A DNA stretch of 64,000 nucleotides from Ceratodon purpureus (Eukaryota; Streptophyta; Bryopsida; Pseudoditrichales; Ditrichaceae): contig CM026425.1 in the NCBI GenBank assembly GCA_014871385.1, forward strand, positions 13,211,668-13,275,667, written 5' to 3'. The notes beneath the pieces were generated by a model that searched no databases, was not told the DNA's origin, and saw only the letters and a program-made list of their open reading frames with translations. Of this stretch, positions 14,701 to 40,500 are shown piece after piece (the stretch's first letter is position 1; each line of letters starts with the position of its first letter). The translations under genes were made by a program, and so were the position numbers.

Positions 14701-14788
14701 CTCGAACAAGCCGAACTCGCTGAAACGGAATAGGGATTTCCTCGACGGGGGACGTGTCGGACGTCCGCCCAGATCCACGCAGGAGTGA
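11716..14788 (+). CDS. MULE transposase of the outer element, four exons, one in-frame TAG
   Basis: Exons are about 11716-12215, 12389-13130, 13213-13412 and 13570-14788, all phase-consistent. Exon 2 has a FAR1/WRKY-GCM1-like zinc-binding region (YECQYG, CVCRF, then HENSASLVVHG). The DDE core follows: MDATFGTN (first Asp), IVDDALAEI (second Asp), CLWHVRRAW (CxxH) and NAGIESYHGH (Glu). A SWIM zinc finger, CECVWAQKGNLCKH, lies near 14217-14262. The C-terminus is predicted coiled coil plus a basic tail. This order is that of MuDR/FAR1 transposases, which cut and join element ends in the nucleus. I chose ATG 11716 as start. A TAG at 12082-12084 interrupts exon 1, and the frame stays open on both sides, so the gene is likely inactive unless that segment is spliced. 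It converges with the Ulp1-like gene. Confidence 0.8.
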
Positions 14789-18800: not shown

Positions 18801-19891
18801 GACTGGCGTTATGAAGGCGCTGGGCATCTACGGCCTCCTCGTGTTTCTTCCAGTCGTGGACATTGACGTAGTAGTCCATGGAGGCGTTCGCGAGACGGTC
18901 CATCTCTGTCTCGGACATTTCCTCGGTGTCCAACACTTCAGAAAGATCTGCCGCTAGACCGCTATCTCTCTCGGAGTATAGAGAATTCTGCAATTCAGAG
19001 AGTACGGCAGTCCTCCCCCGTTAGCAACCTTGAGGCACAGATTTAAGTGCAGACAAGTATGAAAGATAGACGAAAAAGAATTAAAATATCGCAACACATT
19101 AACGACAAATACAAGTTATTATAAAATAAATAAGTTGAGAACTCCAGGGAGGAGATGTCGTACCTTTCGATTCAACTTCTGGAATCGGAAGTAGGTAAGC
19201 GAGATGATTGTCTCGCGCCCCTCCTTCTTCAAGAACTCCCCCAGTCTGGTCCGAAGAGTTCCCCTGTCCCACGTGTGGAACTCCCTCTCCTCCCCAAAAA
19301 GCCCGTAATCCATTAGGATGGTGAGGCCCGTGTGTCCCAAGCGTGTCTCGGGCTAGCGAATTGGATGTAGTGTGAACAGGGACTCCGCTGCCTCTTGAGC
19401 CTCCTCCACAACCTTCTCCTTGTCTCGCATTAAGGCGGACATTGGGCTCAGGGGAACCTCCATCGGGGCCTCGTCGACCACCATAGCCTCCGCTCCAGTA
19501 TCCTCTGTGTGGACAGTGGGAGTGAAGACGGGCGTATCAGAGCCGTATCCGGGACGTATCCGAGACGTATCCGAGGCGTATCCGGCTGTCTCGTCCCGGA
19601 TTGGGGATGGCGGTTTCTCGTCCGATGGTTTCGGTCGCTTCGCTGCTGTCGTGTTTGTCTCGCTCCTTGCCGCTGGGACCTTCTGTGCCGGGGTTGTCTT
19701 GCGTTTGTTTTTCCGAGAGTTAAACTCCCTGTCCTCGGGTTCCTTCACCGGCTTATAAGCCCTCACAGAAATATCTCGTCCTTGTTTGTCTCGCTGTCGA
19801 GGAGGGAGTCCTGCCCGAGGAACAACGACAAACGTATCAGGTACAGTTCCCGTGGCGTCGTCTTCGCCTGCAGATGTGTCTCGCCGGGGCG
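15817..19891 (-). CDS. Ulp1/C48 cysteine-protease-like gene of the outer MULE, 3' part
   Basis: Exons on the minus strand are about 19891-19164, 18987-18524, about 18370-18003, 17896-17053 and 16876-15817. The last exon carries a Ulp1-like protease core: His in DKDHWTLFVVE (near 16519), Asp in LLHIHD (near 16453) and Cys in SWECSYAM (near 16304), the order of C48 peptidases. Ulp1 enzymes remove SUMO, and Ulp1-like genes ride in plant MULEs (Kaonashi and related). The 5' part lies at 35056-35758, beyond the inserted second MULE, and the reading frame continues when that insertion is discounted. In-frame TAGs occur at 19353-19355 and 18355-18357; the latter may fall in an intron. The gene is thus split and decayed. 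It could be an anti-silencing factor like VANC rather than an active protease. Confidence 0.7.
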
Positions 19892-19903
19892 GTGAGGGGA
19901 TGA
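19892..19903. repeat. 12-bp imperfect target duplication, left copy (central MULE)
   Basis: GTGAGGGGATGA borders the central element and recurs as GTGAGAGGATGA at 35056-35067, with one mismatch. Collapsing the two copies keeps the Ulp1-like gene in frame. Twelve base pairs is longer than the 8-11 usual for MULEs. Confidence 0.6.
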
Positions 19904-19915
19904 GGGAAGCTTGTA

Positions 19916-19975
19916 CGTGAGCGGAGAGCGCAGAGCGGAGAGCGGTGAGCGCAGATTTGGAGAGCGGAGAGCACA
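19916..19975. repeat. GAGCGGA heptamer array, left end of central MULE
   Basis: About eight heptamer-like units (GAGCGGA, GAGCGCA, GAGCGGT and variants) occur just inside the terminus. They are mirrored in inverted orientation near 34990-35040. Such subterminal arrays are typical binding sites for transposases. Confidence 0.7.
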
Positions 19976-20092
19976 GAATGAGGGACAGAACCTAAAAATA
20001 GCACTTTTTTTACTAAAAATAAAATATAAAATTAGAAGATTCGAATATTTTTAGTGTATTTTTGGAAATATACCGATTTTAGTAATTTAGAT

Positions 20093-20109
20093 GACCCTAT
20101 AACCGTGGA
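20093..20109 (+). repeat. Inner inverted word of central MULE, left
   Basis: GACCCTATAACCGTGGA is repeated in inverted orientation at 34937-34953. It may be the inner part of a partly eroded long inverted repeat. Confidence 0.55.
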
Positions 20110-20880
20110 CTAATTACAGTATTTTCATTGAATTTGTAGTTCATATTCTCCTTTCTTGGTGATTAAATTTTTAACGTGCACCAATTACTATGCTCCAGCT
20201 CCTTCTAACTAGTTCAGGCGTACAGTAATTCCCCTTATCTCCTTAAATTTATATGCAAATTACTACTTAAAATGTATTGGTATTGAACCTCTGAACAGGG
20301 ATCAAGTAACATTTAATTTCGTAATATTTTCTTAACATTGCTAGAATTCATCCACCATAGTCTACATGCCTTTCTCCTTTTTTTTCTTTTTTTTTAAATT
20401 TTTTTGATATTTGTCTTGTATTTTTTATAAAATTTTCTTTATTCTATCTATCTTGTTAGAGGGGTCAAAAGCCTCCTTGCATTTGATTCTCTCCTTCATT
20501 TTATTTTCACAATCATTTTATTTTCACATTCAATTTGTTGATCTCCTTCATATTATTTTCAACCTTCATTTTAAATATTGCTATTCTTTTCTTTAATCTT
20601 TTTAATTTCAATTTATATAAATGTCTTTTTTTTTTTAATTTTTTTTTTTTTTTTTCATTCTTTATTTTTTGAAGAAAAATTTAAATGCTAAATGACCTCT
20701 GCTAAACCTTCATCTTTTTCCATTCGGTTTAAGAGGATGACAACTTTTAAATGAATGAATAGCCGATTTTCAAGGGCGCCAAGCATCTTCTTCAGGGATA
20801 TTTAAGATAGGAGTAGGGAATGTCTCTGCCTCTTTTGTATTGGTGTTATGTGAAGCTCTTTTCCGTAGTGCGGGACAGCA
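20110..20880. other. AT-rich subterminal region of central MULE
   Basis: Homopolymer T runs (around 20380-20400 and 20620-20660) and AT-rich DNA. No gene is seen; it probably includes the promoter of the ORF at 20884. Confidence 0.5.
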
Positions 20881-20883
20881 CCT

Positions 20884-21336
20884 ATGGAAGACGTCAGAGA
20901 TATTGTTGTTTCACTCGCTGACGATGTTTGTCCATTTCAACCATATGTTGAGGTGGAGGACGAAGAAGAGGTGATGGCCAACAGCCAAGGGCGTCCGTCG
21001 ACATCGGATGTTGCGGTACAACCGGATGTAAGAGCTGACCCTCCACGTTCAGAAAATTCGGATGAAATCATAGTGCTAGAGAAGGACGCAGATGTGCCTT
21101 TGCAACCACATGCATACTCGAAGGTTGGAAAGATCCCAAGGGGAACCTATTCCAGGGAATCAGTGAATCGGAGGCGGGGAGGTGGGCCATTGCTGAAACG
21201 ATCATTCCAAGGACATTTGCCAAGTGTGGGAACGAAAGTGAATGCGAATGTAGTTTGTCCTGTAGTACAGTCAGCGGCTGGCAGTCCTGCTGATAGTGTA
21301 GTGGGCAACCCTAAACGTGTTAGGTTCGAAGATTAG
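20884..21336 (+). CDS. Small acidic protein ORF of central MULE, 150 residues
   Basis: A complete ORF runs from ATG 20884. The N-terminal half is acidic (VEVEDEEEV, then NSDEIIVLEKDAD); the C-terminal half is basic and glycine/arginine-rich (NRRRGGGPLLKRSF) and ends in NPKRVRFED. It converges with the transposase gene on the opposite strand. No known domain is apparent. Its acidic-then-basic layout would suit a small nuclear accessory protein, but that is a guess. It could instead be the first exon of a longer transcript. Confidence 0.4.
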   Translation: MEDVRDIVVSLADDVCPFQPYVEVEDEEEVMANSQGRPSTSDVAVQPDVRADPPRSENSDEIIVLEKDADVPLQPHAYSKVGKIPRGTYSRESVNRRRGGGPLLKRSFQGHLPSVGTKVNANVVCPVVQSAAGSPADSVVGNPKRVRFED

Positions 21337-21590
21337 GACATCTAATAACAAGTATATGTTTGCCTTAATAAAGGCTACATGTCAGGGGATACGAGGTATA
21401 TAGTGCACTTCTTCAAGATACAATGTATTGAAATAGAATGCAATCAATGTGAACGCCAAAGCCTTTAATATAATGAAAAAGTCAATACAGCTTCTCAATA
21501 GCTGACTTAGTATATGGTATATTACTAAAATCATTCACTACGTGACAAATGGCCATTGTGGAAATGGAAGTTCTAAAGTAGGAGGGCTAC

Positions 21591-24500
21591 CTACTTCTTC
21601 GCCAAGGGGTGACGCAAGATTCCACCCTCTAAGAGTAGCTTGACCTCGTTGAAGCTGAAGGTAGGCGCATGGATGAAAAGCTCCGCTTCGGGATCACGGT
21701 TGCAGACCTTCAAGAATATGTAGTATAGGTGCTTACAATACGTGAACTGAGTCTTGCCACGGAACGTAGTCATTGTCTTCTTGAATGCTGGGCAACTGCA
21801 ACCAGGGTAAGAACTGATGGTAATCTGGTACCGTGTGATGTGTGGAGCGACGCCGGAATCCAGCCGAATGATGCAACCGTGACCCGGCTCAGGTATCATG
21901 GTGACGGAACGGAGGCGCGCTTTAAGAGATTCGGAGGAGCCCATGGAGAGTCGCTGCGCTTGATTGAGACGAGTGGCAGTGCGCTTCACCATCTTGCCGT
22001 CTCTCTTCCCTGGGTAGCGGTCAGCGTCTGCAGGGACTGGCACCGAGCTGAGATTTGCAGGGGGCAGGGCAGAGGAGAAGAGGCGTCTTGGGGAGACCGG
22101 TTTCTTCTGCGGAAGTTGAAAGCCCGCTGCTTCGAGGGCAAGAATCTCAGTAAGTTTTAGGTTAGTACCTAGTTTCACTGGCCACACCTCTGGAATGGAG
22201 GGGAATTCCTGGTCCTTTGAGTAGTGTGCTACCCACTTGCGCTTAGAGCCTTTCACGCAACGCTCAATATCGTCGGAGCAGAAGAAGAACTCAGTCTTCT
22301 CCACTAGGTTCCTGCGATAGTTAGTCCAGAGCCCAGTGTAGGTCGGTGCAGCTGTGCAATGGGGCCCCCTGACGATTCTCTTTGTGCACTTCTTCTTCGT
22401 TTCAGCTCTTTGGGCCCAGCAGCACTTCGCAGAAAGTTTGTGAAGTCTCGAAATGTTTCCTAGGTTAGGGCTAGGAAACCAGTATCAAAAACATGAAAAC
22501 AGAGTGCAGAGATAATACCTCGGTCATGAATCCCCCCCACTAGCGGAAGCGGTGGTGCCAGAATGACAGCCACTGATCGAGTTTGATGAGCCCGCTCTCG
22601 CCAACGACCCCGGTGGATGCCCACCATGCTCGCAACGCGTGGTACAGAGTTTCCGCCTCTGCCATGCTGGTCGCATTCTTGTACTGAGTGCACATCTTCT
22701 TGTGCTGTTCTCAGAGTTCTTCGGGGAAGTGCTTCTGCGTATACGCCACCATGTTCTGAGTCCAGTGGAACAAGCACGACCGCTCCCGGTCCTCCATTGG
22801 GTCCTCTTTGTTGCCATTGCCGTAAAGGATCCGCACTGCATTCCAATTGGCCTGTGCGTTATCCGCCATGAACCCCTTGAAGTTCGACGCTGCAACGCCA
22901 TTGATCTCCATGACCAGGTTCAGGTTTTTCCAGAAGACGAGCTGGGCGTCCGTGTCCTCGGACTGCATGTCGCAAGTGGCGATTGTCATCACGCGGCAGT
23001 AGGTGGCGTCGTACACATGGCACGCCATCGTCGACCAATCTTTGACGCGTTTGACATGGTCGAACATGATCCATGCGTTCTCCAAATCGCCACCAGCTTG
23101 CATACGGCTGACCAAGTCGACACCACTGCCCGGCCCGACCTCCGACATCTTGAAGACAAAGACTTTGTCACGCATCGATCCCTGTCCAGGAAACCTATTC
23201 TCCTGGACATACGCCCAGAGACTGTTACCACGGAGCTTGGTGATACCGTCCATGATTCCGTACCTTACGAATTTTTTGAAGGTGGCAACTTTGTTGCGGA
23301 TGTTGGGCGATGCCATGTCTTTGCATCGATCCAGAACAGGAACCAGCTCCTCCATCGTCAGTTTCCTCGGTGGTGCATCCTTGGGCTGTAGAAGGTAGCT
23401 CCCGATGAGGAGTTTGCTCGCCTCCAGGACAACGGCGCTCTTCGTTGCTTTGTTGTTCATCTCTACCTGCTCTTCTATTAAGCTACTAATCTCTGCTTTA
23501 GAGTCTCTGTAGTCTCCTACTTTCACTGGATGATCATGTGTTCCTATGTGAATACACGCTCTAGTCTGATTCGGTTTGCCCACAACGTAATAAATCTTAG
23601 CCTCGCATGTAGCTACACATGATGGAGGTTCTTTACATACCTTGCACACTAGCGTCGAGTCAGATGGAGGAGGCTGGTCCATGACAAAAGCTTGCAGGGT
23701 ACAGCCTTCGAACTCAGTCTCGTTGACCTCGAAGATCTTGGGAACACGCTTGAGAAAGTCACACTCCTGGTTGCTGCACCGGAGCCATCCGACGCAGGTG
23801 GAACTTCGAAAAGAGAGTCCGAAGTCGTTTTTGATGTTTGTTGTGATGGTCTTGGTCCACAAGTGTCCGTCGTATCGTATGTCCATTCCCTGCATAGACT
23901 TGGCGGCGAGCTTAGAGGAACCTGCAGCAGCTGGGGGCAACTCAAAAAGAACTGGACCATCAAACTTCGCAGGCAAGTACTCTACTCTCTCGTGTCTAAT
24001 AGTGGAATAGTCTATCTTCTTCAAAATGTTTTTGGACCCACGCGTCTTAGCAATCTCTTTAAGGAGCGGAACAATGCTAACTGTGACCTGGGACAATGGA
24101 GGAGACACATTGGAAGGAGGAGCATCTGCGTGGACCTTAGGCACCAACTTGACGGGACTGACTTCGTCATCAGAAGAGAGAGATATGACGGTCGGAGGAG
24201 GTTTCTCAACATCTGAAGTCTCGGTACCAGGCTCGACTTTGACTTTGACATCACGAGGTAAGGGAGTCTGAATTGTGCAAGTAGAAGAGCGACGGGGGGT
24301 GAGGATCTCAGTGGATGCAGCCATAAGAGAATCAGTAAGACCGTAGACTCTATAGGATCCAGGGAGGAGTCTCCACTGCAACATGTTGTTCTCATCTCTC
24401 ACTGAAGGTTGCCCGAGGGTGTGGGTAACCTCGGCAGTAACGTCATCGAACATCTCCTCCTCTATACTGATGGAATCCTCACGAAAATGGAATCTGAGAC

Positions 24501-24597
24501 TGAGGCGAAGAGAAGACACTGTAGCTAGACCATCGTCATCTACGCGAAACCTTAGAGGGATGCCCATGCCTTGGGCGTACAGACAAACCATCCCCAT
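21591..24597 (-). CDS. MULE transposase of the central element, with in-frame stops
   Basis: The first long exon starts at ATG 24597 or slightly upstream and ends near 22519. The last exon runs from about 22463 to 21591. The N-terminal part has a cysteine/histidine region of FLYWCH/WRKY-GCM1 type (RCSNQECDF, CKVCKEPPSC, then CIHIGTHDHP). The core shows a first Asp in HVYDATYCRV (near 23010), a second Asp in FMADNAQANW (near 22860) and CLFHW (CxxH) near 22775. The C-terminal exon has a SWIM finger, CSCPAF...YCKH, near 21730-21790. Together this is the MuDR-type order. A TGA at 22711-22713 and a TAG at 22540-22542 lie in frame, so the copy is probably inactive. It is clearly diverged from the outer element's transposase. 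Confidence 0.75.
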
Positions 24598-25394
24598 ATT
24601 CGCAGGCAACTCAGAGATACTAGAGGAAGAACGGAGAAGAGTGAGTGTACTAGCCAAGCAGTATCGCGAGAGCAAAGTGAGAGGAATGATGCATCGCTGT
24701 TGATCATTTTATTCAAATTGGAATGTCCATGTAGACGACTAGGTAATGATTTATTCAGCTACGTAACGAATGTATGATTTAAGAGAGACGGCGCTAACTA
24801 ATTATGATGTTGCTTTTTGCAGGCCCATAAATATGTAGGAAGATTTTTAGAATATTGCTTCGCGTATTTGAATGGTGGAGCAGATTCTATATTTTATGGG
24901 GTGTGATTGGATTAAAAAGAGCCGTCTACTCTTTCTGCATTTAAAACAATAAATATATAGAATTTGAATTAATCAAATTCATGCATTAGATATATATTTA
25001 TTGGACTAATGCAAGCATATGATTTATTCAAATTCTATATTTTATTCAGTGTTAGAGTTCCTCAATATTCAAAATAAATTGCTGGACAGACAGACTGTGA
25101 GTGAGATTAGAGTGAGCCGTCACTTGCATCCATATTTAATACAAGTATTCCTGTGCTTAATTCAAATCTTTTAATATTTTGTGGGCTTGGTTTATTCTCT
25201 TCAAATATAGATTGATCTCATCAGCTTTAATTCAAGTTGCAATTTATTTATAGTTTTCATTAATTCAAGTAGGTTTAGAATATGGGAAGTATTTAGGGCT
25301 GAGTCAGGGGGGTTGCAGGTTTGGGATACATAAGTAAGAGGGAAGTTAGGAGGAGAGCTATATTGTGAGGAGACTTCTCTCGTTAGTTAGACAT

Positions 25395-28300
25395 ATGAAG
25401 GAGAGTGGAGGGTCAGCTCCCTCGACTTATGTCACTCCTAGGCGTAGAAGAAAACCAGGTGGTACAGATTTTACTAACAGGAGATCGAGGAAGAGGAGAG
25501 AATTACGTAGGAAGTCAAAGTCGAAAGGCAACCTCTTGAGTGCACCTCTGAAGGTTCGAGGAGCTGGGCTGCCTGTGGCAATTAAATTTTGTAGCATCCG
25601 TAAACTCATTCTAGAGTCCATAGTAGAGGCGGAAGATGAGGTTTTAGAGGATACCGCGGTTGAGCATGAGGAGCATGAAGTAATTAGGAGCGAAGAGGAA
25701 CATCTGGAGATGACGGAAGAGCTAGGGTTCAATTGCAGTCCGACTTTGGAGACACCGCAACCTTCTTTCGGATTCAAGGAGTGTTCAACAAGAGGGACAG
25801 ATTCTCAGTCAAGTGACCATGCTCATACGGATGTGGTAAGTTTCATAATCCACAAATTTGAAAATGCTAAATGTAAATTATGTATTTTGGTAGAGTTATA
25901 TTTGGTGAGAATTAATGTCTTTGCTGCAGGTTCGTTGTTTTACTGTTTAGAATAGTGAAGCTGCATTAAACTGAACGGTTGTTTAAAATAATAGTGGAGT
26001 AGTAATTCTCGTCTTAGTCGTAAACATTTGCGCAGACTGGCGACTGCTTTAGGATTGAGCAAGATGTTATAGAGGAGAAGACGCCAGAAGTGGATACGGG
26101 CGAAGAGTCAGATCATGAGACGTTGAGAAAAGTCGCTAGGAGAGCGAGACGCCAAATTATGGAGGCGGGCGAAGGTGGGGAAGCAGTTGCTGCTATACGA
26201 GCGGGGCGAGGGCACCCTGGAAGTCCTACTGAAACTAGTGGGGAGGATAGTGATTCGGTCGACATTGCGGTAGGTCCAGGAGAAGAGGACATGGATGACG
26301 GGTCGGCCCGAGGGAGAGGTCGAAGGGGTGAGGTGAGGGGTCGAGGGAGGAATAAGGGTCAAGGTGGGAGAGGGAAAGGCTCTTCGGAAGCCCCAGTTCA
26401 GCATTCAGCCGCGGCCCAAGCAGAGATCCTGAAGCAGATGGAGGGGCGAGGAGCGGCGCGTGAGGAGGAGGAGATGGCGAGTGAGCAAGGTGCCTCAGAC
26501 CGTGGCCCTCCAACAGATGAGGTGAGGTTTCGTGTTTGCCTGCGATTGATGTTTAGATCTTGGGTTGTTGCGGTTGAGCGTGTCAGTGGAAAGAGAGAGA
26601 AGGATTAAGCCGCGAGTGCTGCAGTCGCAAAGGCCGTGAAGTAATTTGTGAGGTAGGAGATTTTGAATGCGGGGGTGGCTGCTCCGAGCTCATTTTTCGA
26701 GGCCATGGCCAAGGCCGTCGCGGTCCCATTTCGAGCTGCAGAGGGCGACATTGCAGTAGCAGCCCCGGGGGGAGGAGCCCCCGCAGCACCGCATTCGGAG
26801 CCGACACTCCCCCATGAGGAGGGGGAGGAATCGGGGGCTCACTCCCTTACTGCTCCGAGCTCATTTTTCGAGGCCATGGCCAAGGCCGTCGCGGTCCCAT
26901 TTCGAGCTGCAGAGGGCGACATTGCAGTAGCAGCCCCGGGGGGAGGAGCCCCCGCAGCACCGCATTCGGAGCCGACACTCCCCCATGAGGAGGGGGAGGA
27001 ATCGGGGGCTCACTCCCTTACTGCTCCGAGCTCATTTTTCGAGGCCATGGCCAAGGCCGTCGCGGTCCCATTTCGAGCTGCAGAGGGCGACATTGCAGTA
27101 GCAGCCCCGGGGGGAGGAGCCCCCGCAGCACCGCATTCGGAGCCGACACTCCCCCATGAGGAGGGGGAGGAATCGGGGGCTCACTCCCTTACTGCTCCGA
27201 GCTCATTTTTCGAGGCCATGGCCAAGGCCGTCGCGGTCCCATTTCGAGCTGCAGAGGGCGACATTGCAGTAGCAGCCCCGGGGGGAGGAGCCCCCGCAGC
27301 ACCGCATTCGGAGCCGACACTCCCCCATGAGGAGGGGGAGGAATCGGGGGCTCACTCCCTTACTGCTCCGAGCTCATTTTTCGAGGCCATGGCCAAGGCC
27401 GTCGCGGTCCCATTTCGAGCTGCAGAGGGCGACATTGCAGTAGCAGCCCCGGGGGGAGGAGCCCCCGCAGCACCGCATTCGGAGCCGACACTCCCCCATG
27501 AGGAGGGGGAGGAATCGGGGGCTCACTCCCTTACTGCTCCGAGCTCATTTTTCGAGGCCATGGCCAAGGCCGTCGCGGTCCCATTTCGAGCTGCAGAGGG
27601 CGACATTGCAGTAGCAGCCCCGGGGGGAGGAGCCCCCGCAGCACCGCATTCGGAGCCGACACTCCCCCATGAGGAGGGGGAGGAATCGGGGGCTCACTCC
27701 CTTACTGCTCCGAGCTCATTTTTCGAGGCCATGGCCAAGGCCGTCGCGGTCCCATTTCGAGCTGCAGAGGGCGACATTGCAGTAGCAGCCCCGGGGGGAG
27801 GAGCCCCCGCAGCACCGCATTCGGAGCCGACACTCCCCCATGAGGAGGGGGAGGAATCGGGGGCTCACTCCCTTACTGCTCCGAGCTCATTTTTCGAGGC
27901 CATGGCCAAGGCCGTCGCGGTCCCATTTCGAGCTGCAGAGGGCGACATTGCAGTAGCAGCCCCGGGGGGAGGAGCCCCCGCAGCACCGCATTCGGAGCCG
28001 ACACTCCCCCATGAGGAGGGGGAGGAATCGGGGGCTCACTCCCTTACTGCTCCGAGCTCATTTTTCGAGGCCATGGCCAAGGCCGTCGCGGTCCCATTTC
28101 GAGCTGCAGAGGGCGACATTGCAGTAGCAGCCCCGGGGGGAGGAGCCCCCGCAGCACCGCATTCGGAGCCGACACTCCCCCATGAGGAGGGGGAGGAATC
28201 GGGGGCTCACTCCCTTACTGCTCCGAGCTCATTTTTCGAGGCCATGGCCAAGGCCGTCGCGGTCCCATTTCGAGCTGCAGAGGGCGACATTGCAGTAGCA

Positions 28301-31300
28301 GCCCCGGGGGGAGGAGCCCCCGCAGCACCGCATTCGGAGCCGACACTCCCCCATGAGGAGGGGGAGGAATCGGGGGCTCACTCCCTTACTGCTCCGAGCT
28401 CATTTTTCGAGGCCATGGCCAAGGCCGTCGCGGTCCCATTTCGAGCTGCAGAGGGCGACATTGCAGTAGCAGCCCCGGGGGGAGGAGCCCCCGCAGCACC
28501 GCATTCGGAGCCGACACTCCCCCATGAGGAGGGGGAGGAATCGGGGGCTCACTCCCTTACTGCTCCGAGCGCTCTTTTCGAGGCCATGGCCAAGGCCGTC
28601 GCGGTCCCATTTCGAGCTGCAGAGGGCGACATTGCAGTAGCAGCCCCGGGGGGAGGAGCCCCCGCAGCACCGCATTCGGAGCCGACACTCCCCCATGAGG
28701 AGGGGGAGGAATCGGGGGCTCACTCCCTTACTGCTCCGAGCTCATTTTTCGAGGCCATGGCCAAGGCCGTCGCGGTCCCATTTCGAGCTGCAGAGGGCGA
28801 CATTGCAGTAGCAGCCCCGGGGGGAGGAGCCCCCGCAGCACCGCATTCGGAGCCGACACTCCCCCATGAGGAGGGGGAGGAATCGGGGGCTCACTCCCTT
28901 ACTGCTCCGAGCTCATTTTTCGAGGCCATGGCCAAGGCCGTCGCGGTCCCATTTCGAGCTGCAGAGGGCGACATTGCAGTAGCAGCCCCGGGGGGAGGAG
29001 CCCCCGCAGCACCGCATTCGGAGCCGACACTCCCCCATGAGGAGGGGGAGGAATCGGGGGCTCACTCCCTTACTGCTCCGAGCTCATTTTTCGAGGCCAT
29101 GGCCAAGGCCGTCGCGGTCCCATTTCGAGCTGCAGAGGGCGACATTGCAGTAGCAGCCCCGGGGGGAGGAGCCCCCGCAGCACCCTTTTTTCGAGGCTCT
29201 TTTTGATTTGTTAAATTCGGTAGTCTTTGCTTTATATTTTTTATTTGCTGTTATGTGTATTTTTCTTATAATTTGATTTTCCTTTGTATTGTAGGAGCTG
29301 ACAGAGCAATTCACTGCAAGTGACTTTGATGGCCCAACTCCAGCAGAAACTGAGGTAAGTTGTTCGACTTTGCCTTTTGGATTGAACATAGCATTATTTG
29401 TTGAACTTCGATAATCATTTGTTTTTTTTTCTTCTCAAGGCTTAGATGGGAATCTGACAATGTCTTTGTTATTTTTCTCTAGGTATTCTCAGATGCACCC
29501 TTGTCCATCAGTTCCCCGACCTCCGTGATCAATGTTTCCGACCTCTCAGATTCATTTGATCAGCCCCATTTGTGTAGGTGTGATTTAGGAATCCCCATTA
29601 GGAGAAGTTTGGGGTCTCCAACGGGCCTTTTCCATGCTTTCCGTGCCAAAGTTTTGGGCATGCCCGTGCACTTTACCTGCTGGCACCAACTGTGCCAGCA
29701 GGTCGCCAAATGCTGCCAGCAGTGCCAGCAGTTGGCATTTGGGGGGTCCAGCCAATCGCTTCCCTTCCCCACCCCACCCCACCCCACCCCCCCATTGGAC
29801 AATACAAGCAATAATGACACTGTCACCGACCGTGTGCCCACTGCTGTCACCCCATTGGACAGTACCGGATCCTGTAGTCAGCGGATCCTGTAGTCAGCGA
29901 ATCCTGTTGTCAGCGGGGCGAATTTTGTTGTCAGCGGGCAGAATATCGACCAATGAGATTTCGAAGAGAAGTGTCAGCGGGCAGGAAGCTCACCTAATCC
30001 GGGCTGTCTTACAAGGCCCGTTGGAGACCTGATTTTTCCCCTAATGCGTAGGTGTAGGTAGTGGACCTCTTGAGGTCCACTCTCCTCAGTACATGCCTAC
30101 GTCTCGTGTCTATGAGCCTACATCCCCTGGCTACATGCCTACCTCTCCAAGACTTGGGACCCCGCCTATGTCTCCACCTTCTCCATCCTCGCCCATTAGA
30201 GTGAGGAGGCCAGCCCATGTTGTCTTCGCCCTCCCAGCGATATTGCCATGCCCTGTCCAACAAACCAGGCGATTTTGGAAGAGGCGCCGTCACTGGAACT
30301 ATAGACAGGCTAGGGAGTATTATAGTCGTGCACGACGCACATAGTGGCCTAAGCTCTATTTATTTCTGCTGCAGCTATTTGTGTTCTCAAATGATATGTA
30401 CCAGTCTGAGAAGTAATTCTTATATTCTACATTATTGTTTTTGATTTGCTTACGATCAATATCTTTGAATAAACTCTAAAAACGTTTGACCTTTGACAGG
30501 TAACTCAAACACAGGATCAGTTGCCAGCGCCATCTTGTCCTACTGAATTGACGAATGCAGTGGACAGTGAATTGGAACACAGAAAACATTTCAAAGCGGA
30601 CTCTACAACCGTCATCAACGATCTCCGAATACTCCCAAAGACGAAGTCCCGTATCCTCGTACCCCTCTGCAGGATGCAGTCAATGGCAAGAGTGCGACCT
30701 GTAGGAGAAATGGGAGTTCAGCATTTGGAGCGAGAGTTTGTCAATGGATATAAAGATGGTGACCGGGTCATGTACATTTCCATGTACAACCACGAGGAGA
30801 AGACAGCGGAAGTCACGCCTGAGATCAAGGCTGACTGGAGCCCTTGTTGGCAGAAAGTCAACGATGCTTTCGAGGATGAGCTCTTAGCCGACCCGGACTG
30901 GAAGGAGTTCTCCGGGAAGATGTTCTATGTCTGGGAAGGTAACCATCGCCTTGTCGCATGGTATAGACATATTAACAACCATCACTTTGATGATCCAGCT
31001 TGGCACATCTCCGTGCATTGCATTGTTCTTGACCCACGCGGTCATGTGGGAAACCTTCTTCATGCCATGCACGACATCAACTGGTAAGCATTTGTTCTAT
31101 ACTTCTTGTCCTCACTTCTTGAAAGCTGCTTGAACCTGCACTACACGGCTTTTACTAACTACATATCCTCATGCAGGTCTACAGAGAATGATCACGTGAA
31201 GAGTAATCTCCCTGCAAAACTCTTTCGTATTCGCTCTTTTGGTGTGATGAAATTGGAGGAATTCAAGGATCTGCTCTCACCGGCGGAGTATCAAATATGT

Positions 31301-34300
31301 TTGAATCACAAGCCATCAATTCCTGGATGGTTTACTTTGCCAACCAAAATCTTCATCACATTTCTTTATCGTGTAAGCACTTCTTCTTCGCCCCCCCCCT
31401 AACGCTTCTAAATGTCATGAATTGCCATGCTCTTTACACTCAGAAGTTGATAATTTTATTTTCCAGAGAGAAATCGTGGCTGCTTCTGACGAAGCTGCCC
31501 GGACCTACAAGGAGAAGACACCCATAACAGAGCAAACGGCGGCAGGGGTATGGGATGCCATGTCTGCCGCTTCGTCCAGCATGGTCGACCACATTAAGAA
31601 GAAGGACTTCACCAAGTACCTCGCCATTGCCAATCCCAAAAACGGTGATGACTTCCTCGCAGAGGTAAGTTTCTTCACATCTCTACTTTACTTTTGAATA
31701 AGTAATTTAAACACTAACCTTCCCGTTCATGTAATGTTCACTTCCCAGATCAATCGGCATTACAGTGAATTCTCCAAGCCGGAGATGACAGTGGAGAAGC
31801 TTCAGAAGATTGTTCCTGCAGCTGTTGATGCAAAGTTCAAAGCGCGTTGGCTGAGGTGGTGGAACTCCTCACCAAGTGCACGACAATCTTACAGATTTTT
31901 ACCCCTGGAGTTCAAGGAGGCCGACTTCGACCCTTGGTTGAACAAGGCAACATTCTGGGCTGGGGTATAGTTCCTTCAAACTTTATAAAAAATACTAAAA
32001 CCACTTCTTCTTTGCACCACGTCAATATTTATCTCACCGACTTTTCCTTTCTGTCACAGATAGAGGATGCTGTTACCCGGGAGTTTGATGACATCTGCAA
32101 GACCGAGAACCTTGTCATCAAGTGGAAGTCCTTCCCGGGACTGTTAAGGCCAGACGCATATGTGGAGAGTTGGCGAATTCTCCTCTGGGAAAAGGCTTTC
32201 CCCGCATTTATTAGTACCCGCGCAGAAAAACCTTTTGATAAGAAGTCTGATTTCTCCACTTATCCGAGAGCAGCAGATGTTGTCAAGCGTGTGACATACC
32301 GGTAGGACATTTATGAACTTCGACTTTGTATAGTTTTCCCTTTTCGCATTTCTTTATTGTCAATAATATGTTTCTGATACATGGCAGTTGAATTTTATTA
32401 GGTACTTCAAGAGAGAGCTGGTTCCAAAAGGTGCAATTGACCCTGAGAAGTTCCCTTCATACTTCGCCTCGTGGATTCAGAAAGGTTCTGATCAGTGTAT
32501 CTATACTCCTCTGCAGCTGAGGAGGTACAGCTCTCCGCACCTAGCCGCTGGTTGTTGGTACCTCGATTGTATTCGAGGTTTCGTTGTTGACTCTGAAGCG
32601 GAGCTCAAAGCTGAGCTTGACGGGGGATCAATAGCCATCGACGATTCTGGAGACGGTTCTGATGAGGCAGAAGGCCTCCAGGATCAATCATCTGCACCTC
32701 CACCGAAGAAAGGGCGGGGGCGGCGACTGCGAAAGCTGGGTGCTACGTCCCAGGGCTCTCAGGAGACTGGTGCAGAGTCCTCCGCACCGGAGAAGGGCGC
32801 TGCCGTTCCATCTCCTGTGATTGTCGTTCCCAATCCGTCCCCTACTCCTGCGCCTTCATCGGTCAGTGCATCCGCTATCACCAGAGGTCTTCTGGAACAA
32901 AGGAAGGCCAGACTTCTCCCGGCAAGCACCTCCTCCGCAGGAACTCTCCATTCCACTGGTGTTTCTATCATCAAGTCATCCGTGACCCCGTTACTGGTTC
33001 GTAACATGGAGCTCAAAGACAAGGGTGGCCATCCGGATTGGGTGAAAACTCTAGACTTCGTGCGCAAGGTATGATTCTCTTCTTACATAATTCGATATTA
33101 CATACACTTCAATTAATTTCATACAGTCTAACCCTATAGCGTTGTTTCTCCAGTTTGGACGTGGCCGCCAGAACGAAGTTCCTGAGCGGTGCCAGGTTGA
33201 GAATCATCTGGGAGTCGACTTGATCATCGTTGACATCCCTGAGAATCTTCCTGTCCCTCTCGTTTCCGATCCTCGTACCGTGATTCCTCCTTGGAACTCC
33301 CGTGAAAAGGATTATGTGTACGACATTTTCTATTTCGCAAGTCTTTACTTGCAAAATGATGGCGCTCTGTGCATCATCTACAACAATGATCAAGCGTTGG
33401 CTACGGAGATTCTTGAAGAAGCTAGCGCCACTAAGTTCGTCCTTTACAAAGACTGGTGGGGCTTTAATGAGCTCGGCCTGACTTCTCCTACGAACCCCGG
33501 AAACCTGGTAATTTCATCCTTTACTTTCCTTCAGTTTACTTAGTACTATCCCATCCGTTTATTCATTCTGACATAATTTGGTTGATTGCAGACTAATCGG
33601 TTCTGGATCCGGGTCTTCGTTCGTGGTGGCGAGCCGCCATCTAAGTTCTCCTTTCAAACGAAGAAATCCCATGTCATACATGGCGACCTCAACATTACCG
33701 AGAGTGATGCGATTTTCAACTTTATCGACGTTGATTCTCAGCAAATGAATGGGGATGTTCCATGGAGAGGGCCAAGGGAAAAATCCCCTGGGATGATGCA
33801 GAGCATAATTGGAGAGCTCTCGAAGCCCGGCGACATAGTCCTGGACTGGAAGGCAGGAACAGGTAACCGTTCTTACATGTTTCTATAGAATTATTTCTCT
33901 GATTCCTTCCTCAGTTTCTCACGTCTTCACCTTGCTTTGAGTTGCAGGGGCCTCTGTCAAGGCTTGCCAGGCTATTGGTCGTCATATTATAGCTTTTGAG
34001 GATGACGAAGCCATATTCAACGCCCTTCTCAAACCGTATATGGCAGCAAAATCTCCCATGGGCCCCCCTAAACATCCTAGACCGGCAGCAGCAGAGGAAG
34101 CACCAGCAAAGAAACAAAGACCCACTAAGTATTGTAAGTCTTACTCTAGAATTTGTATGTTTCGTGCAATGCATCTAGTATTATTTCTGTACGCAAATTT
34201 ACCTATTCGATCTAACCACTTCTGGCTTTCTATTGCAGAGTAGTTGTGACAACACCGCCAAGTGGGCATAGAGCCGTGTTCACTCCATCGTGGCGTCTTA

Positions 34301-34512
34301 ATTCCAGCCCGGTTCAGCCTTTTATTCTTCCGGACTATGCAGAGGGCTTAGCACAAGCGCTTCAATGTGGTGCACTTAGATATGTTCCTAGTCGGCCCAC
34401 TAATTTTGATCCCAGGGCCCTTCTATTTGTCGATGAAGAGGCTGTAGAAGGAGAGTCTGAGTCATCGGGTTCTGAGAGTGGAAGTAGCGACTGTAGCATC
34501 TTCGAAGTTTGA
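25395..34512 (+). CDS. Long spliced gene: tandem-repeat region, ParB-like and DNA-methyltransferase-like domains
   Basis: Phase-consistent exons are 25395-25835, 26036-26521, 26657 to about 29184 (tandem repeats), 29295-29354 and 29483 to about 29573. After the MITE-like insertion come 30500-31083, 31177-31372, 31467-31664, 31749-31964, 32060-32301, 32402-33068, 33154-33507, 33592-33862, 33948-34133 and 34241-34512. The N-terminus is basic then acidic. Near 30930-30960 a ParB-like signature appears (YVWEGNHRLVAW, compare G-HR--A of ParB/sulfiredoxin folds). Near 33830-33990 a SAM-binding motif appears (DIVLDWKAGTG, then CQAIGRHIIAFEDDEA), typical of N4-cytosine/N6-adenine DNA methyltransferases. 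The usual catalytic (D/S)PP(Y/W) is replaced by VDIPEN near 33230. The C-terminus is acidic/serine-rich. ParB plus methylase fusions are known in bacteria and phages. It may be one gene or two; the junction at 29573-30500 is unresolved. Confidence 0.6.
26681..29184 (+). repeat. 171-bp coding tandem array, 14.6 copies
   Basis: Fourteen complete 171-bp units and a final 110-bp unit follow one another, each exactly 57 codons, so the frame is kept. The encoded unit begins APSSFFEAMAKAVAVPFRAA and ends with EEGEESGAHSLT. Copies look identical except the twelfth (start 28562), where the first bases differ and the unit reads SALFEAM. Such homogeneity points to recent expansion or conversion. Confidence 0.95.
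29574..29581. repeat. 8-bp target duplication, left copy
   Basis: GTAGGTGT flanks the MITE-like element; the second copy is at 30048-30055. Confidence 0.65.
29582..30047. mobile_element. 466-bp MITE-like element
   Basis: It is flanked by the 8-bp duplication GTAGGTGT. Near its ends are inverted copies of GGTCTCCAACGGGCC (about 29611 and 30015), with terminal similarity GATTTAGG versus GCATTAGG. Internally it has a CCAGCAG/CTGCTGG-rich palindromic stretch and a short direct array of TGTAGTCAGCGGATCC-like units near 29872-29940. It has no coding capacity. An 8-bp duplication suits hAT-type MITEs. It sits inside or at the edge of an exon of the long gene. Confidence 0.6.
30090..30152 (+). other. 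Three RNA-polymerase-II-CTD-like heptads
   Basis: In the frame of the open stretch 30051-30344 the product reads YMPTSRV, YEPTSPG, YMPTSPR in direct succession, followed by a serine/proline-rich segment. The consensus Y-x-P-T-S-P-x is that of the Pol II CTD (YSPTSPS). Whether this exon joins the long gene could not be settled from splice sites. Confidence 0.55.
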
Positions 34513-34936
34513 AAGAGGCCTCGCTCTATCATTGTTTCCATTTAATTTGATTTGATTTCAGTGGAGTTCATTACATACTACATTGTCTACTCTATTGCAT
34601 AGCACTAAAATATTCATGGTTCTCATTTCCAGTTTATACTCGTGTATACCTTGCCTCCTTTATGTTCTATGAAAGTTGTTTTTTTCCTTGTGCATTTACA
34701 TAATCCTATTAAAGAATTATTTGTTTGATCTAAAACTTAACGCCTGATCATTGTATCTTGCCCAAACCCATGATAAATCTAAAGGAATGTATGCATGACG
34801 TCATCATGACATCAGCCCTAATTTGTATCTTTGAGAACAAACGTAATAAATTCTTACCAGAGATAACCCTAAATTCCACGGTAATATACTCTTTTTCTAA
34901 AAAAAGTGTCAAAATTAAGCCTTAATTTAGTAATTT
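34513..34936. other. 3' region of the long gene and AT-rich subterminal DNA
   Basis: No ORF of note. Probably the 3' UTR of the methyltransferase-like gene and the right subterminal region of the central MULE. Confidence 0.5.
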
Positions 34937-34953
34937 TCCACGGTTATAGGGTC
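34937..34953 (-). repeat. Inner inverted word of central MULE, right
   Basis: Inverted partner of 20093-20109, read as GACCCTATAACCGTGGA on the minus strand. Confidence 0.55.
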
Positions 34954-34989
34954 TACTTTGCTTTTGAAAATTTTCCTAATTGTCAATTC

Positions 34990-35044
34990 TGTGCTCTCCA
35001 TTCTGCGCTCACCGCTCTCCGCTCTACGCTCTCCGCTCACGTAC
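34990..35044. repeat. Heptamer array, right end of central MULE
   Basis: CTCTCCG/CTCACCG-type heptamers are the reverse complement of the GAGCGGA array at the left end. Confidence 0.7.
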
Positions 35045-35055
35045 GAACTTTCCCC

Positions 35056-35067
35056 GTGAGAGGATGA
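35056..35067. repeat. 12-bp imperfect target duplication, right copy (central MULE)
   Basis: GTGAGAGGATGA, partner of 19892-19903. Confidence 0.6.
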
Positions 35068-35758
35068 TAGGGACAACAGCAGGCGTCGGTGCCGTCTCGG
35101 GATTGGCGATGAACGGGGGCCTACTATGGGGTCTTCGCTCCACCACGGGCGAGTCCGAGGCCTCAAAGTCACTGTCTGCCTCTGCCTCGGAATCTGAATT
35201 GTTGAGCACCATATCATAAGTCCTCACAGCCAACCTATCAGGGACAGTTTTTGTCTCGGCCTTCATGGGTTTCATCGTCTGCTTCTTCGGCGATCTACCA
35301 CTCGGACCACGAATCGCAGGGACGCCTTGTTGGAATTTAACCGGCTCACCTCGACGCAACATAGCCTGTGTCTCGTTCACGTAGTCCCTCACCAACTTCT
35401 GGGGCGAGACACCCGCTTGCAGCTTGTCAATGGTAACGTTCTTCTCAAGCAGATTCGGGTACATCTTCTCCGGGATGACGTTACCGTTCGCGTCGACATT
35501 TAGGGGGCACCCGTGCCACCTATGAGTATTCAGACGCGTCTTCTGAGCACACATGGGCTCCCCGTTCTTGCCACGGCATTCGTGCTTGCAGCAGAACAAT
35601 CGACGTCCTAACATCACCGGCGCGCTATGACACTCCAGGAGCAAACTCTTCCACTCCTCCCCTGTGTAGTGTTCCGTAAACAACTTCTTGTCGCTTTCGT
35701 GGACCTCCGTGACGCCGTCGTCCGTGATCTGGAGGTTCCTCCTGTACTCGGGAGCCAT
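35056..35758 (-). CDS. 5' exon of the outer MULE's Ulp1-like gene, with a zinc-binding region
   Basis: This exon starts at ATG 35758, just after an acceptor (TTTTAG). The product contains a compact Cys/His cluster, FCCKHECRGKNGEPMC and then HRWHGCP, like the zinc-binding regions of FAR1/GCM-type DNA-binding proteins. A positively charged hinge and an acidic serine/aspartate stretch (NNSDSEAEADSDFEASDS) follow. The open frame runs into the inserted central MULE at 35055. It resumes in the same frame at 19891 on the far side of the insertion, where the protease-bearing exons follow. I therefore treat both parts as one gene. A Cys/His DNA-binding head joined to a Ulp1-like tail would suit a protein that recognises specific sites on the element. 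That role is inferred. Confidence 0.6.
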
Positions 35759-35759
35759 G

Positions 35760-36560
35760 TCTCGCTAACTTGAACCTAAAACAAACAGGAGCGGAGGTTA
35801 GTAACCTGGATGCAAAGTTTATAAGGCCTTCCGAGACACAGACACAGGGGCGAGACTGCGAGACAGCTGCAAAGCAAAAACCGTGCACATCAAATTCGGC
35901 AGAAACTATGGACGACAGGTTGGAGCCTCTACGACGGATCGTTGTCTCGGCGAAACATGAACGACGAATCGGGACAGAAATTAAGATTCTATGCACAAAA
36001 TTGGTATCCTCCGGAACTCCCTCCCAATTCCAACGCGAGACACTCCTGTAACGGGGGCGACATCGTCGTCCTCATTTCATTTCGACATTAGCAGCGAGCC
36101 CACCCACAACGACCGCAGACAAGATACACCTGAACACTATTCCACGAGACATGTCTATCCTAAACCCTAAACCCCAGAACGTCGTGACGTATGACTTCAA
36201 AACCCTAAAACTAATCTCTGTGACAAACTCCGGCAACAAAATCGCTCTCGTCTCTCCGGAACACCATAAAAACAAACACATAGAAGATGATGAACGTATA
36301 CATACCTCGATTGTCTCAGCGAAATCGCCTCTGCACTCCTCCTCCGAGCAAATCGCACAAACTCCTGGATCGCGGCTCCAGCAACAGACTCCGACTCCTC
36401 AGTTCTCACAACACTCTCAAACTCTATCACAACACTCTCCGCCCATGAAAGCGCCTCTCGCACAACACTCTCCACCTCACAAACACTAAGCGGAACACAT
36501 CTAACAATGGCGCGAGACAGCGGAGAAGGAAACGGAGAGAAATTGGCAGAGAAATTAGCA
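35760..36560. other. Outer MULE regulatory or non-coding segment
   Basis: The segment is rich in CGAGACA words. It probably holds the promoter and leader of the minus-strand Ulp1-like gene. I see no convincing coding exon. Confidence 0.4.
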
Positions 36561-36923: not shown

Positions 36924-37358
36924 TGGTAAAGGGAGGATTTACCAACTAAACCCTAGCCTTCACAATCCCATCAAAACCCAACAAAACCCAACTAAACTAA
37001 GTGCTCCAAACACTCATAGGTTGCTGGAAATGTACAATACAAGTGCAAAAAGAGGTCAAAACTGCATAAAATGGGTCAAAACAGCCCCAAAACCATAGTA
37101 CAGCAGTTCCTAACAGCTCTCAGACCTCTCTGACTCTACCTGCTCTAGTGTAGAATGATTACAGGAAACCCTAACCTTGCCTCTTAAACCTCCTGAACTG
37201 GCGGAAGTCATCCAGTCGGCTGGTGACAGAGTTCATCCAGTCGGCTGGTGACAGAATTCATCCACGTCGACTGGATGACTGTCTAAGGTAAGGATGAAAA
37301 CTGTAAAGAGACTAAGGGAAACTAAGGGAAGGGGAGATTGGGGAATCTCCGGTTAACA
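36924..37358 (-). repeat. LTR of Ty3/gypsy element (3' LTR in element orientation)
   Basis: A 435-bp LTR, TGGTAAAGG ... GGTTAACA. It is nearly identical to the LTR at 49243-49677. Just inside lies a purine run on the minus strand (GGAAAAAGGGGATAA), the likely polypurine tract. Confidence 0.95.
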
Positions 37359-37542
37359 TTATCCCCTTTTTCCGGTAGTTCTGTCCCCAGAACGTGGTAG
37401 ACGGAGGAAAACTGAGAAATGAGAACCAGCCTAGAGAAACGTAAAATTTCTAGGCTTAATCAAAATGTCAAAAAAATGCTAGTGCCCCCAAAAAAAACTA
37501 AAAAAAACATGAAAGTCGCAGTCGAAGGAGTCGGGCCGTCAG

Positions 37543-40500
37543 TCAGTCGGCTGGTGTACAGTCGGCGGCGCCTCGGTCGGGTGCAGAAGTCGGGTCGTCG
37601 GTGTCGAGCCAGGGCTCGAAGGTCGGGTCGCGCGCCTCAAACTTGGACAACCAAAGGTGCTGACGATCCAAGTCGGCTCTGTAGGCAGTCAACACAGTCT
37701 CCAAATCCCGCTGCTTGGTAGCAGCATAATCCCTCACAGCACGGCTGAGTTCCCGGGGCTGAAGGGTGTGCAACGCTAGCTCCGTCTTCAACTGCTGATT
37801 CTCAAGTAAGAGAATGTCAGCCTGTTGGAGACGGGCGCTGAGTGTAGACTCTAGCTCCAACCTACGAATCGATGGTGGAGCTGGTGTTGCGACCGGGACG
37901 CGGGCAGCCAGGTCGGCCTGTAAGGCCTGTACCTGTTGCTGAAGGTCGGTATGATCACTAAGCAACCTAGTATGAGTTGCTGTAAGAGTGTGTAGAGCAG
38001 AATCTCGGGCGGCAATCAGCTGGTGAAGCTGATGGATTTGGAGGTCACGGTCGGCCACTGCCGTGGCCACCTGCTGCCGGCTGTGCTCAAGTTGCTGAGC
38101 GGCGGTACGGGTCTGGACCAAGGCGTTGGCGATGGTCTGAAGGTTGTGAAGAACAACCTGGAGGTCTGGGGTCGGAGCACAGCCGAGTGGAGGTGCAGGA
38201 GGCGAACCCGGAGGTGGAGCCTGGTGCTGCTGAAGAGGTTGAGTCGGGTCCGCATGTCGGCGTGGTGCGGGAGCTGTCGCAGACGAGTGGTCAACACGAG
38301 CAGAAGGAATCGCAGCGTCGGTGTTGCCGTCAGTGGAAGGCTGCGCTGGAGCCGCCCTTGGAGCCGTGGGTCGAACCTGGTCACAGTAAACGGTGAGGTC
38401 CCTGGGTGGTAGTGCAGGCATGAACTGAGGGGGCGAAGCGCAGTCCACTGGAGCTGAGGCTTGGGTGTCGGCGCCGGAGACAGCGGTAGTTGGCTGCACT
38501 GATGCAGCAGCCCAATCCACTGTATGCTGTGAGGGGGGTTCTGATAGCAGAGAGAGTGGGTCGGGTGGAGTACCGGTGGAGCTGCCCAGCTGAATGATAG
38601 ACTTGGGTGTCGCAGCGGCCGCAGCCAAAGGAGCACCCGGAAGATCGGGCTCAGAGGATACCTCCCGATACCGGCGTGGAATATTGCGGGAGCGGAGCGG
38701 GTACCTGCAACTTGGCGATGCTGGAATGTCATGGGCAGCAGAGCGTCGGGGCGGGGTCCGCTGGGTCGGAGAGGAGCTCTGGAAAGCTGGCTGGCGAATG
38801 TGCTGTCCGTGTCGGACGAGTCGGCGGGTGGGACGGCCGACATCAGAAGAACCCTCCTGTGACCGGGAAGTCGGGTCGGTGTCCGCTTGGTCGGCCGAGG
38901 TACTTAGGGTCGGGCGGTGACCATCGCCACTGGTCCGATCCCGGAGCTGGGCAGCGGTAGGGTGAATGGGCGGTGGACTAACGGGGATGCCCTCGTGGCT
39001 ACCATCCATCGTGTCGTAGCTAGATTCCACTGGTGGCGGGTCGGTGACCTCCTCTCGATCTGGAAACCAGTAGGATAGGATAGCATCGATGACAGCAGCG
39101 CCACGAAGTCGACGTGGCTCCCCCGGCTGAGAGTGGAGGTAGATTAAATGACGGCGCAGATTGGCCAGGACAAAATAGGACCAGTCGAAGGTGCGCTGTC
39201 GACGGCCGGCCTTCTCTGCTGCCAAGATGTGCTCGACCAGATCGTTGCTGACAAAAAGGAACCGCTTCTTGAACCCGATGGCGTCACTTAACGCCCGCAC
39301 ACGTACCTGGTAGGCGTCCGGTAATGCTGTCACTCGGTTACCATCATGTGCATGATCGGCCTCCGTCAGTCCGAGCTGTGAGTAACGCTCATGGAATCCA
39401 AAGCCTACCTTCTGACCAAGTAAGCTGGTGCCTTCCTCGAACCCCAAGGCAGTGCGGATCACATAGGCTGTGATCTCGACTGGTTTGCCCCGAACCATGG
39501 AACGGATAGTCTGCTCACCGGGAGCTCGTCTGGTGCCTCGGGGCTGCGGAGTATACTCAAAGCCATCCACAAAATCCAAGACTAACTCAGGTCGAGGGTC
39601 GGGCCAATGGAAATTGTAAAATACCTGTAGACTCGTGTCGGCAGCCCAATCGTCATCTGCTAAGGCTCTCCATGCTTCCCACTGGGTGTGGGGTTCGAAT
39701 GTAATGTCGAGTCGACGATGGAGGTTCCGTTGGATGCGGACAGTCTTCGGAATCCGCGCATCGAGTGCTGTGAACTTCCGCTTGGCGCCTCGCCTCTGGT
39801 CGGGGGGTGTCGGGTCGGTGGCTGTGGTCGGGTGTGTAGCTGCCGCCAGAGCCGCAGTCGGCTGGTTGGATGCAGTTGGCGGGGCAGTTGGCAATGTCGG
39901 CTCGCGTAGAGGGACTGTAACTGTTGCCATAGTCTCAGTCAGCTGTGTGGGGGCAGGGGGCAGGGCAGGTACCAACAGCGGCTCCGGTGGAGGTTCAGCA
40001 ACTCCCGCCATAGGGGGTGTGTCGACTGGATGAGAACTGGGGCCGCCAATCTCCATCGACTCAGCGCTGCCTGCTCGAGGTAGCCCACCGCGAGAAAAAT
40101 AACGTTCCAACGTCCCCCGGGTAGCCCGTCGGCGAGGCCGTGTGCAGTAAGCACGACGAGACAACTGCGTGACTTGTGGCGGAACAGACGTGGGACAGTC
40201 GAAAAGCTGTGAGCAGTGGACCGGAAAGTCGAGACAATCCGAGGAGGTACCTGAAGGTGAGGCGGTGGCGGCGCTGTAGGCTGTCTGGAGGTTCGTGGCG
40301 CACGGAGGTTCTCCAACCGAGGGCGGAAACTGCGCAGTCGGTTGAGCAGGCACATGCAACTTCGGAGACTCGGAGTGGCGGCAAAACAATGAGCACGATG
40401 TGGGGGCGCAACTGAAAGCAGCTCCCCTGTGGTGCTGAGCAGCACCAGACGCGGGTAAGCCCGGCTCGGGCTTCACAGAAACCGCAAACCCTGGAAAAAC

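Follow-up and report, generated by a model that had tools for sequence, protein, structure and literature searches.

A 64,000-nucleotide stretch of the genome of the moss Ceratodon purpureus (contig CM026425.1; hereafter the window) contains a mobile element in which an intron-rich gene appears to join a ParB-like domain to a DNA-methyltransferase-like domain. Does this gene belong to the element, and is its product the active epigenetic enzyme that a reading of the sequence alone had proposed?

Structure of the ParB-methyltransferase gene

Ten plus-strand exons between positions 30500 and 34512, joined at GT-AG boundaries, give one continuous reading frame of 1061 codons, uninterrupted by stops (Table 1). 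The introns are short (84-107 bp) and have 35% GC, against ~50% in the exons. Database relatives back the intron positions: P0004 and P0020 are contiguous across intron 1 and P0026 across intron 8, with conserved sequence on the flanks of both introns, while P0031 spans the exon 7/8 junction. The exon at 30500 starts after a splice acceptor, both here and in relatives, implying that further coding exons lie upstream. Exon A was found in nine of ten further copies of the element that were fetched from the genome (c1-c10, ranks 2-11 among the listed matches to the left end), at 58-99% identity, and is absent only from c7. Exons A, B and D are all in phase 0, so that in-frame joining is possible. 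We rejected the 171-bp tandem repeat as a requirement for the gene, since among the ten fetched copies it was matched only in c1 and c5. The MITE-like insertion has inverted arms at 29596-29629 and 30013-30046.

Table 1 Features of the element and its gene (positions within the window)
Feature	Position	Strand	Remarks
Left target-site duplication	19892..19901	+	10 bp; 9/10 identical to 35056-35065
Whole mobile element	19902..35055	.	15,154 bp; sits within an older minus-strand ORF
Left terminal inverted repeat	19902..19983	+	partly GAGCGGA short repeat, 7-bp period
Transposase-like ORF, second part	21591..22484	-	SWIM-like C-x-C...C-x-H pattern by eye
Transposase-like ORF, first part	22711..24708	-	D, D, C-x2-H pattern by eye
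Exon A	25395..25835	+	probable first coding exon, phase 0
Exon B	26036..26521	+	probable second exon, phase 0; charged, poorly conserved
171-bp tandem repeat	26679..29184	+	14.7 copies; open in one frame; candidate exon or intron
Exon D	29295..29354	+	possible small exon, phase 0
MITE-like insertion	29582..30047	.	upstream part of cargo gene; 8-bp duplication GTAGGTGT
Exon 1	30500..31083	+	predicted ParB/sulfiredoxin-type domain (KMFYVWEGNHR); 21 relatives; fold model and structural matches
Exon 2	31177..31372	+	
Exon 3	31467..31664	+	
Exon 4	31749..31964	+	
Exon 5	32060..32301	+	
Exon 6	32402..33068	+	linker, partly low-complexity
Exon 7	33154..33507	+	DIPENLPVP in the region of methyltransferase motif IV; aligns with DPPYNL in DpnA and in phage phiD12
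Exon 8	33592..33862	+	motif X-like PWRGPREK; start of motif I (DWKAGTG)
Exon 9	33948..34133	+	remainder of motif I region (GRHIIAFEDD)
Exon 10	34241..34512	+	C-terminal tail; acceptor uncertain
Right terminal inverted repeat	34975..35055	-	pairs with left terminal inverted repeat
Right target-site duplication	35056..35065	+	10 bp; 9/10 match with the left one

The methyltransferase domain has lost DPPY

Homology of the gene product to methyltransferases is virtually certain. Pfam recognises a beta-class N6/N4 methyltransferase domain above its cut-off (E 1.9e-7), and the motifs follow the order IV before I, the latter being the S-adenosylmethionine (SAM) site. Motif IV of active beta-class N6/N4 DNA methyltransferases reads [DNS]PP[YFW]. 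Here it reads D[I/L]PE, not DPPY, in all six database relatives covering it and in five of the six other genomic copies, the exception being c8, which has DILE along with three stops in exons 2-6. Two alignment programs place D[I/L]PE opposite DPPY; the first proline is thus changed to isoleucine or leucine and the aromatic residue to glutamate, with the aspartate and the second proline kept. Motif I is retained, as D[WV][KN]AG.G in five of five covering database relatives and as GRHI.AFE in the single relative covering that part, and exons 7-9 show dN/dS values of 0.21-0.36 in the five copies where these could be computed.

In our view, a motif IV without DPPY makes binding without ordinary base methylation likelier than plain N6-adenine or N4-cytosine methylation, and its conserved loss would, going by the residues, speak for binding or a changed chemistry. 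This replacement of the tetrapeptide typical of the enzyme class runs against the active epigenetic enzyme put forward in the sequence-only reading. An active enzyme would have to tolerate D[I/L]PE while methylating N6-adenine or N4-cytosine in the element's own DNA, for expression or protection. The intact motif I, the aspartate and second proline of motif IV and the purifying selection on exons 7-9 all argue for such an enzyme, and activity of this kind is predicted for a comparable Ectocarpus protein by the authors who described it (PMC12477816). Since the first proline and the aromatic residue are replaced in every covering relative and in all but one of the other copies, we consider it unlikely, judging from the motifs.

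A predicted ParB-type fold in exon 1

Searching domain by domain succeeded where the full-length protein search gave nothing: exon 1 returned 21 relatives, while none of the 7,995 candidates scored with the full-length protein reached an E value of 1. Every ParB sequence profile tried on this protein was negative, and PF02195 had no match across the C. purpureus genome, the same profile being positive in 10 of 14 control genomes. An alignment of the ParB exon confirmed no relatives in viral contigs (viral_contigs, 14 pattern matches) or genome contigs (genome_contigs, 53), and comparison of the exon itself with phages gave four records with a best E of 0.5, which we took as no match.

A first fold model, made without an alignment, had a pLDDT of 41 and was discarded. 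Compared with viral structure models, the exon 1 model gave a long and mixed list with a best E of 3.9e-4, to a phage chromosome-partitioning protein. Foldseek also returned unrelated proteins, at low probability. The modelled structure makes a ParB/sulfiredoxin (Srx)-type fold quite likely for exon 1. The two domains named in the sequence-only reading have therefore fared unevenly, the methyltransferase being recognised by a Pfam profile and the ParB fold through structure prediction, with ParB sequence profiles negative.

Nuclease and nucleotidase activities occur among ParB-family domains, and nicking of DNA is described for one Bacillus cereus ParB-methylase (PMC5512222). By analogy, the ParB-type part could nick DNA or load onto it and so help to move the element, through its ends, target choice or repair, with no part in silencing; we think such a helper role quite unlikely.

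The element is a probable Mutator-like transposon

Positions 19904-19983 align with 35053-34975 at 82.5% identity over 80 bp (E 2e-13). The GAGCGGA short repeat within these terminal inverted repeats raises the score of the alignment. As the sole cause of the inverted repeats, a GAGCGGA-type repeat was rejected, since these ends are found again at many genomic sites, flanked by proper duplications. A DNA search of the 362-Mb genome with the left end found at least 40 places at 94-100% identity, from 1,482 first-look candidates. The start of most of the listed matches, query base 10 or 11, sets the edge of the element at 19902. Six elements in which both ends could be located (the window, c1, c3, c4, c5 and c10) are 13,422-16,524 bp long, and a 10-bp duplication was found at all six elements measured, perfect in four and 9/10 in the window and c3. 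When flanks were swapped between elements as a control, a similar match appeared in 1 of 30 pairs. Joining the window flanks with one copy of the duplication leaves the minus-strand ORF open with no inner stop, an outcome with a chance of one third.

Target duplications of Mutator-like elements (MULEs) are ~9-11 bp, and the element has both a 10-bp target duplication and long terminal inverted repeats. By eye, the transposase-like ORFs show D, D, C-x2-H, E and SWIM-like residues; Pfam gives no match to the transposase, so MULE is the best label and not a proven one. We regard the element as likely to be a DNA transposon of Mutator-like (MULE) type, ~13-17 kb long and present in many copies. 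The sequence-only reading is supported in that a spliced gene with ParB-like and N4/N6 methyltransferase-like parts is carried by an element of MULE type.

The first transposase part is 96-98% identical in other copies carrying it, and 99% in c1. The two transposase-like proteins of the window have no similarity to each other by BLASTP, and a search of viral_contigs found no relatives of the transposase. In the window, the transposase is interrupted by two in-frame stops, the first part ending at the first of them, and lacks ~0.7 kb that other copies have between these parts; some other element copies have no stops in the transposase parts compared. With its transposase broken, the window copy is unable to move by itself. 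It could be mobilised by other copies, and could still be a source of the cargo gene.

The gene travels with the element under selection

Exons of the ParB-methyltransferase gene were found in seven of the ten further left-end copies, all ten exons in c1, c3, c4, c5, c8 and c10 and exons 1-6 within the fetched stretch of c2; they are absent from c6, c7 and c9 within 20 kb. In these seven copies the gene lies between the transposase and the right side, in constant orientation. The window has the transposase on the minus strand and the gene on the plus strand, and the two are likewise on opposite strands in the other copies carrying both. A DNA search of the genome with exon 1 found at least 40 places at 96-100% identity, from 786 first-look candidates. 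Among the matches listed, ranks 3-10 have transposase sequence within 4 kb upstream in seven of eight cases, the eighth (L031) having none in the 4 kb fetched upstream of its ParB exon. Six places, including the window, are common to the left-end and ParB-exon lists (the best 40 matches in each), with the two features 9.6-11.7 kb apart.

Compared with the window over exons 1-10, dN/dS is 0.19 in c3, c4 and c10, 0.22 in c8 and 0.27 in c5; c1 gave 0.67 at a dS of 0.010, and for c2 the ratio was not computable. Values of ~0.2 in diverged copies indicate that the gene has long been maintained by selection, although five of the six other whole copies now have a stop in it. Recurrent linkage together with dN/dS of 0.19-0.27 marks an element gene and not a chance capture, and we have very little doubt that it is an integral part of the element. 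A host gene is thereby rejected within the C. purpureus genome, on the linkage in fetched copies and on selection; a host gene family unlinked to MULEs, which the sequence-only reading had considered as the contrary case, does not agree with linkage of 7/10 from the left-end side and 7/8 from the ParB-exon side. That the gene is a passenger of host or foreign origin, captured in the style of Pack-MULEs and without function for the element, is very unlikely: gene capture by MULEs is known (PMC13317346, PMC6431247) and many fetched copies contain stops, but place and orientation are constant in the seven copies, dS near 1 is combined with dN/dS near 0.2, and the same architecture is described on unrelated brown-algal transposons in a paper that also cites cases from green and red algae (PMC12477816).

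Gene and transposase differ in divergence. Relative to the window, dS of the gene against that of the transposase is 0.905 against 0.114 in c3, 1.090 against 0.116 in c4, 1.025 against 0.137 in c8 and 1.088 against 0.087 in c10, and in c2 the gene is saturated at a transposase dS of 0.167; in c1 and c5 the two are not discordant. Measured in 600-bp steps, identity over the left 4.8 kb is 90-100% in copies with full-length blocks, apart from one block of c2 at 83%. It drops at ~24.7-25.9 kb and, in the diverged copies, stays at 65-75% for the greater part of the gene, returning to 92-93% in the last block of c4 and c10. Selection of copies through the left end biases the set towards similar left halves, but it is no reason for the right halves to be old. 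The far greater divergence of the gene than of the transposase in five of seven copies suggests, from the sequence comparison, that gene modules may have been exchanged between element lineages.

Twelve close database copies from another lineage show 116 distinct changes from their consensus. Of these, 75 are compatible only with C-to-T or G-to-A, and 16 only with the opposite direction (p 4.6e-12, with uniform codon use assumed), an excess as expected for methylated, decaying repeats.

Relation to known systems

The closest counterpart is the Ectocarpus transposon Sola1-1_Ec32, for which a gene with ParB-like and N4/N6 methyltransferase parts is described, together with cited relatives in green and red algae (Iyer 2011; Petroll 2025) (PMC12477816). 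As described there, it too is a large DNA transposon whose accessory gene and transposase occupy opposite strands, and the accessory protein has 1104 aa, compared with 1061 codons here before the upstream exons are counted. The broken transposase of the window also has its parallel in the giant elements of the Ectocarpus genome, whose transposase genes are reported there as often broken. The likeness is one of description: the Ectocarpus element is a Sola1 transposon of a brown alga, whereas ours is MULE-type, has 10-bp duplications and resides in a moss. This does not support the undescribed system for which the gene had been put forward as a candidate. The architecture is already known from algal transposons, and here it occurs on another superfamily, in a moss genome.

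VANC, encoded by the VANDAL MULEs of Arabidopsis, strips methylation from members of its own family; its targets lie in tandem repeats, some of them in introns of VANC21 (PMC5735166). Both cases involve a MULE-encoded accessory protein, tandem repeats in introns or coding parts and fast divergence between related elements. Unlike the protein described here, VANC is presented in the passages concerned without mention of a ParB or methyltransferase domain, and hypomethylation, shown for VANC (PMC5735166), would be inferred in our case. Inverted repeats set the present element apart from the VANDALs, which are classed as MULEs of the non-TIR kind (PMC13317346). DNA-methyltransferase-type proteins are also encoded by retrotransposons, as described for the DNMTs of Symbiodinium and Klebsormidium and the Dam-like enzymes of DIRS elements (PMC5890265); those are C5-cytosine or Dam-like enzymes, whereas here a beta-class fold is combined with a ParB part on a DNA transposon.

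The ParB-methylases and beta-class methyltransferases of phages and bacteria (DpnA, CcrM, the phage phiD12 enzyme) share the domain make-up and the order of motif IV before motif I. Similarity to them is clear in motifs X and I, and the longest matches to phages reach ~24-26% identity; they have DPPY, in contrast to the D[I/L]PE, the spacer of several hundred residues and the many introns found here. The bacterial and phage ParB-methylases, as described, are the likely source of the architecture (PMC5512222). Our literature search, in which the motif itself was not a query, found no MULE-borne ParB-methyltransferase gene and no D[I/L]PE change, and searches of the literature on N4-cytosine in Marchantia or bryophytes gave nothing that would tie this gene to the N4-cytosine enzymes of liverworts.

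A proposed role against silencing

Taken as a whole, our reading that the gene encodes an accessory protein serving the element, in a role related to silencing, has about an even chance of being right. The protein would be produced from the element and act on element DNA or chromatin. Its ParB part would recognise DNA or spread on it, and its methyltransferase part would bind SAM and DNA; jointly, the two may let copies stay expressible or mobile where the host would silence them, a role like that of VANC in VANDAL MULEs.

A more specific version of this accessory role is possible, if somewhat unlikely in its entirety. The gene may be an exchangeable anti-silencing cassette, in which one transposase half is kept and long-diverged versions of the ParB and methyltransferase-fold gene are swapped. 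The catalytic tetrapeptide would have changed once and then been kept; what began as a methylation enzyme of bacteria or phages would now be a pseudo-enzyme that binds DNA, senses SAM and protects the element family to which it belongs, its target specificity evolving by module exchange.

ParB-methyltransferase accessory genes thus ride a MULE-type element in a land-plant genome too, and the many copies and purifying selection make it likely that the gene matters to the element. Given the conserved D[I/L]PE, it becomes a testable question whether a methyltransferase fold is used by a transposon without ordinary methylation, and the sharply unequal age of the element's two halves is a natural experiment in which the evolution of such cargo can be followed.

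Sequence context of the central element

The 15,154-bp MULE-type transposon at the centre of the window interrupts an older minus-strand ORF, the two halves of which have CpG ratios (1.01 and 1.02) above those of the central element's own genes (0.74–0.81). The Ulp1-type (C48) protease-like ORF nearby, for which Pfam gave a match at chance level only, may be part of the older element that served as insertion site for the central one. The second transposase-like gene showed no similarity to the central transposase in BLASTP, and the F-box gene is probably a host gene.

Features of the central element and its surroundings
Feature	Position	Strand	Remarks
F-box gene	4443–5543	+	Pfam 5.6e-10
629-aa ORF	8702–10591		between the two repeat pieces
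Second transposase-like gene, two ORFs	12354–14788	+	weak SWIM match, E 0.15
Ulp1-type (C48) protease-like ORF	15817–17040	−	H-W, D, Q, C order, by eye
Older ORF, two halves	35066–35764 and 19353–19901	−	interrupted by central element
171-bp tandem repeat	26679–29184		14.7 units, nearly identical; one frame open
Open frame, basic proline-rich peptide	30045–30344	+	stop shortly 5' of exon 1
Ty3-type retrotransposon	36924–49677		3542-codon open frame flanked by direct repeats

Two pieces separated by 3.5 kb (7484–7645 and 11162–11323) match, at 97.5% and in inverse orientation, adjoining stretches of one repeat (49725–50041), which suggests that the intervening sequence, including the 629-aa ORF, is an insertion. 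The Ty3-type retrotransposon is a young insertion, since its direct repeats (36924–37358 and 49243–49677) are 99.8% identical.

Repeats and a short frame upstream of exon 1

The frame preceding exon 1, the ParB/sulfiredoxin-type domain exon of the ParB-methyltransferase gene, could give rise to a short isoform. Among ten further genomic copies of the central element that were compared, the 171-bp repeat is present in c1 (13 hits) and c5 (2 hits) only. According to PMC5735166, targets of VANC, the anti-silencing protein of Arabidopsis VANDAL MULEs, include tandem repeats within VANDAL introns, with which the 171-bp repeat may be compared.
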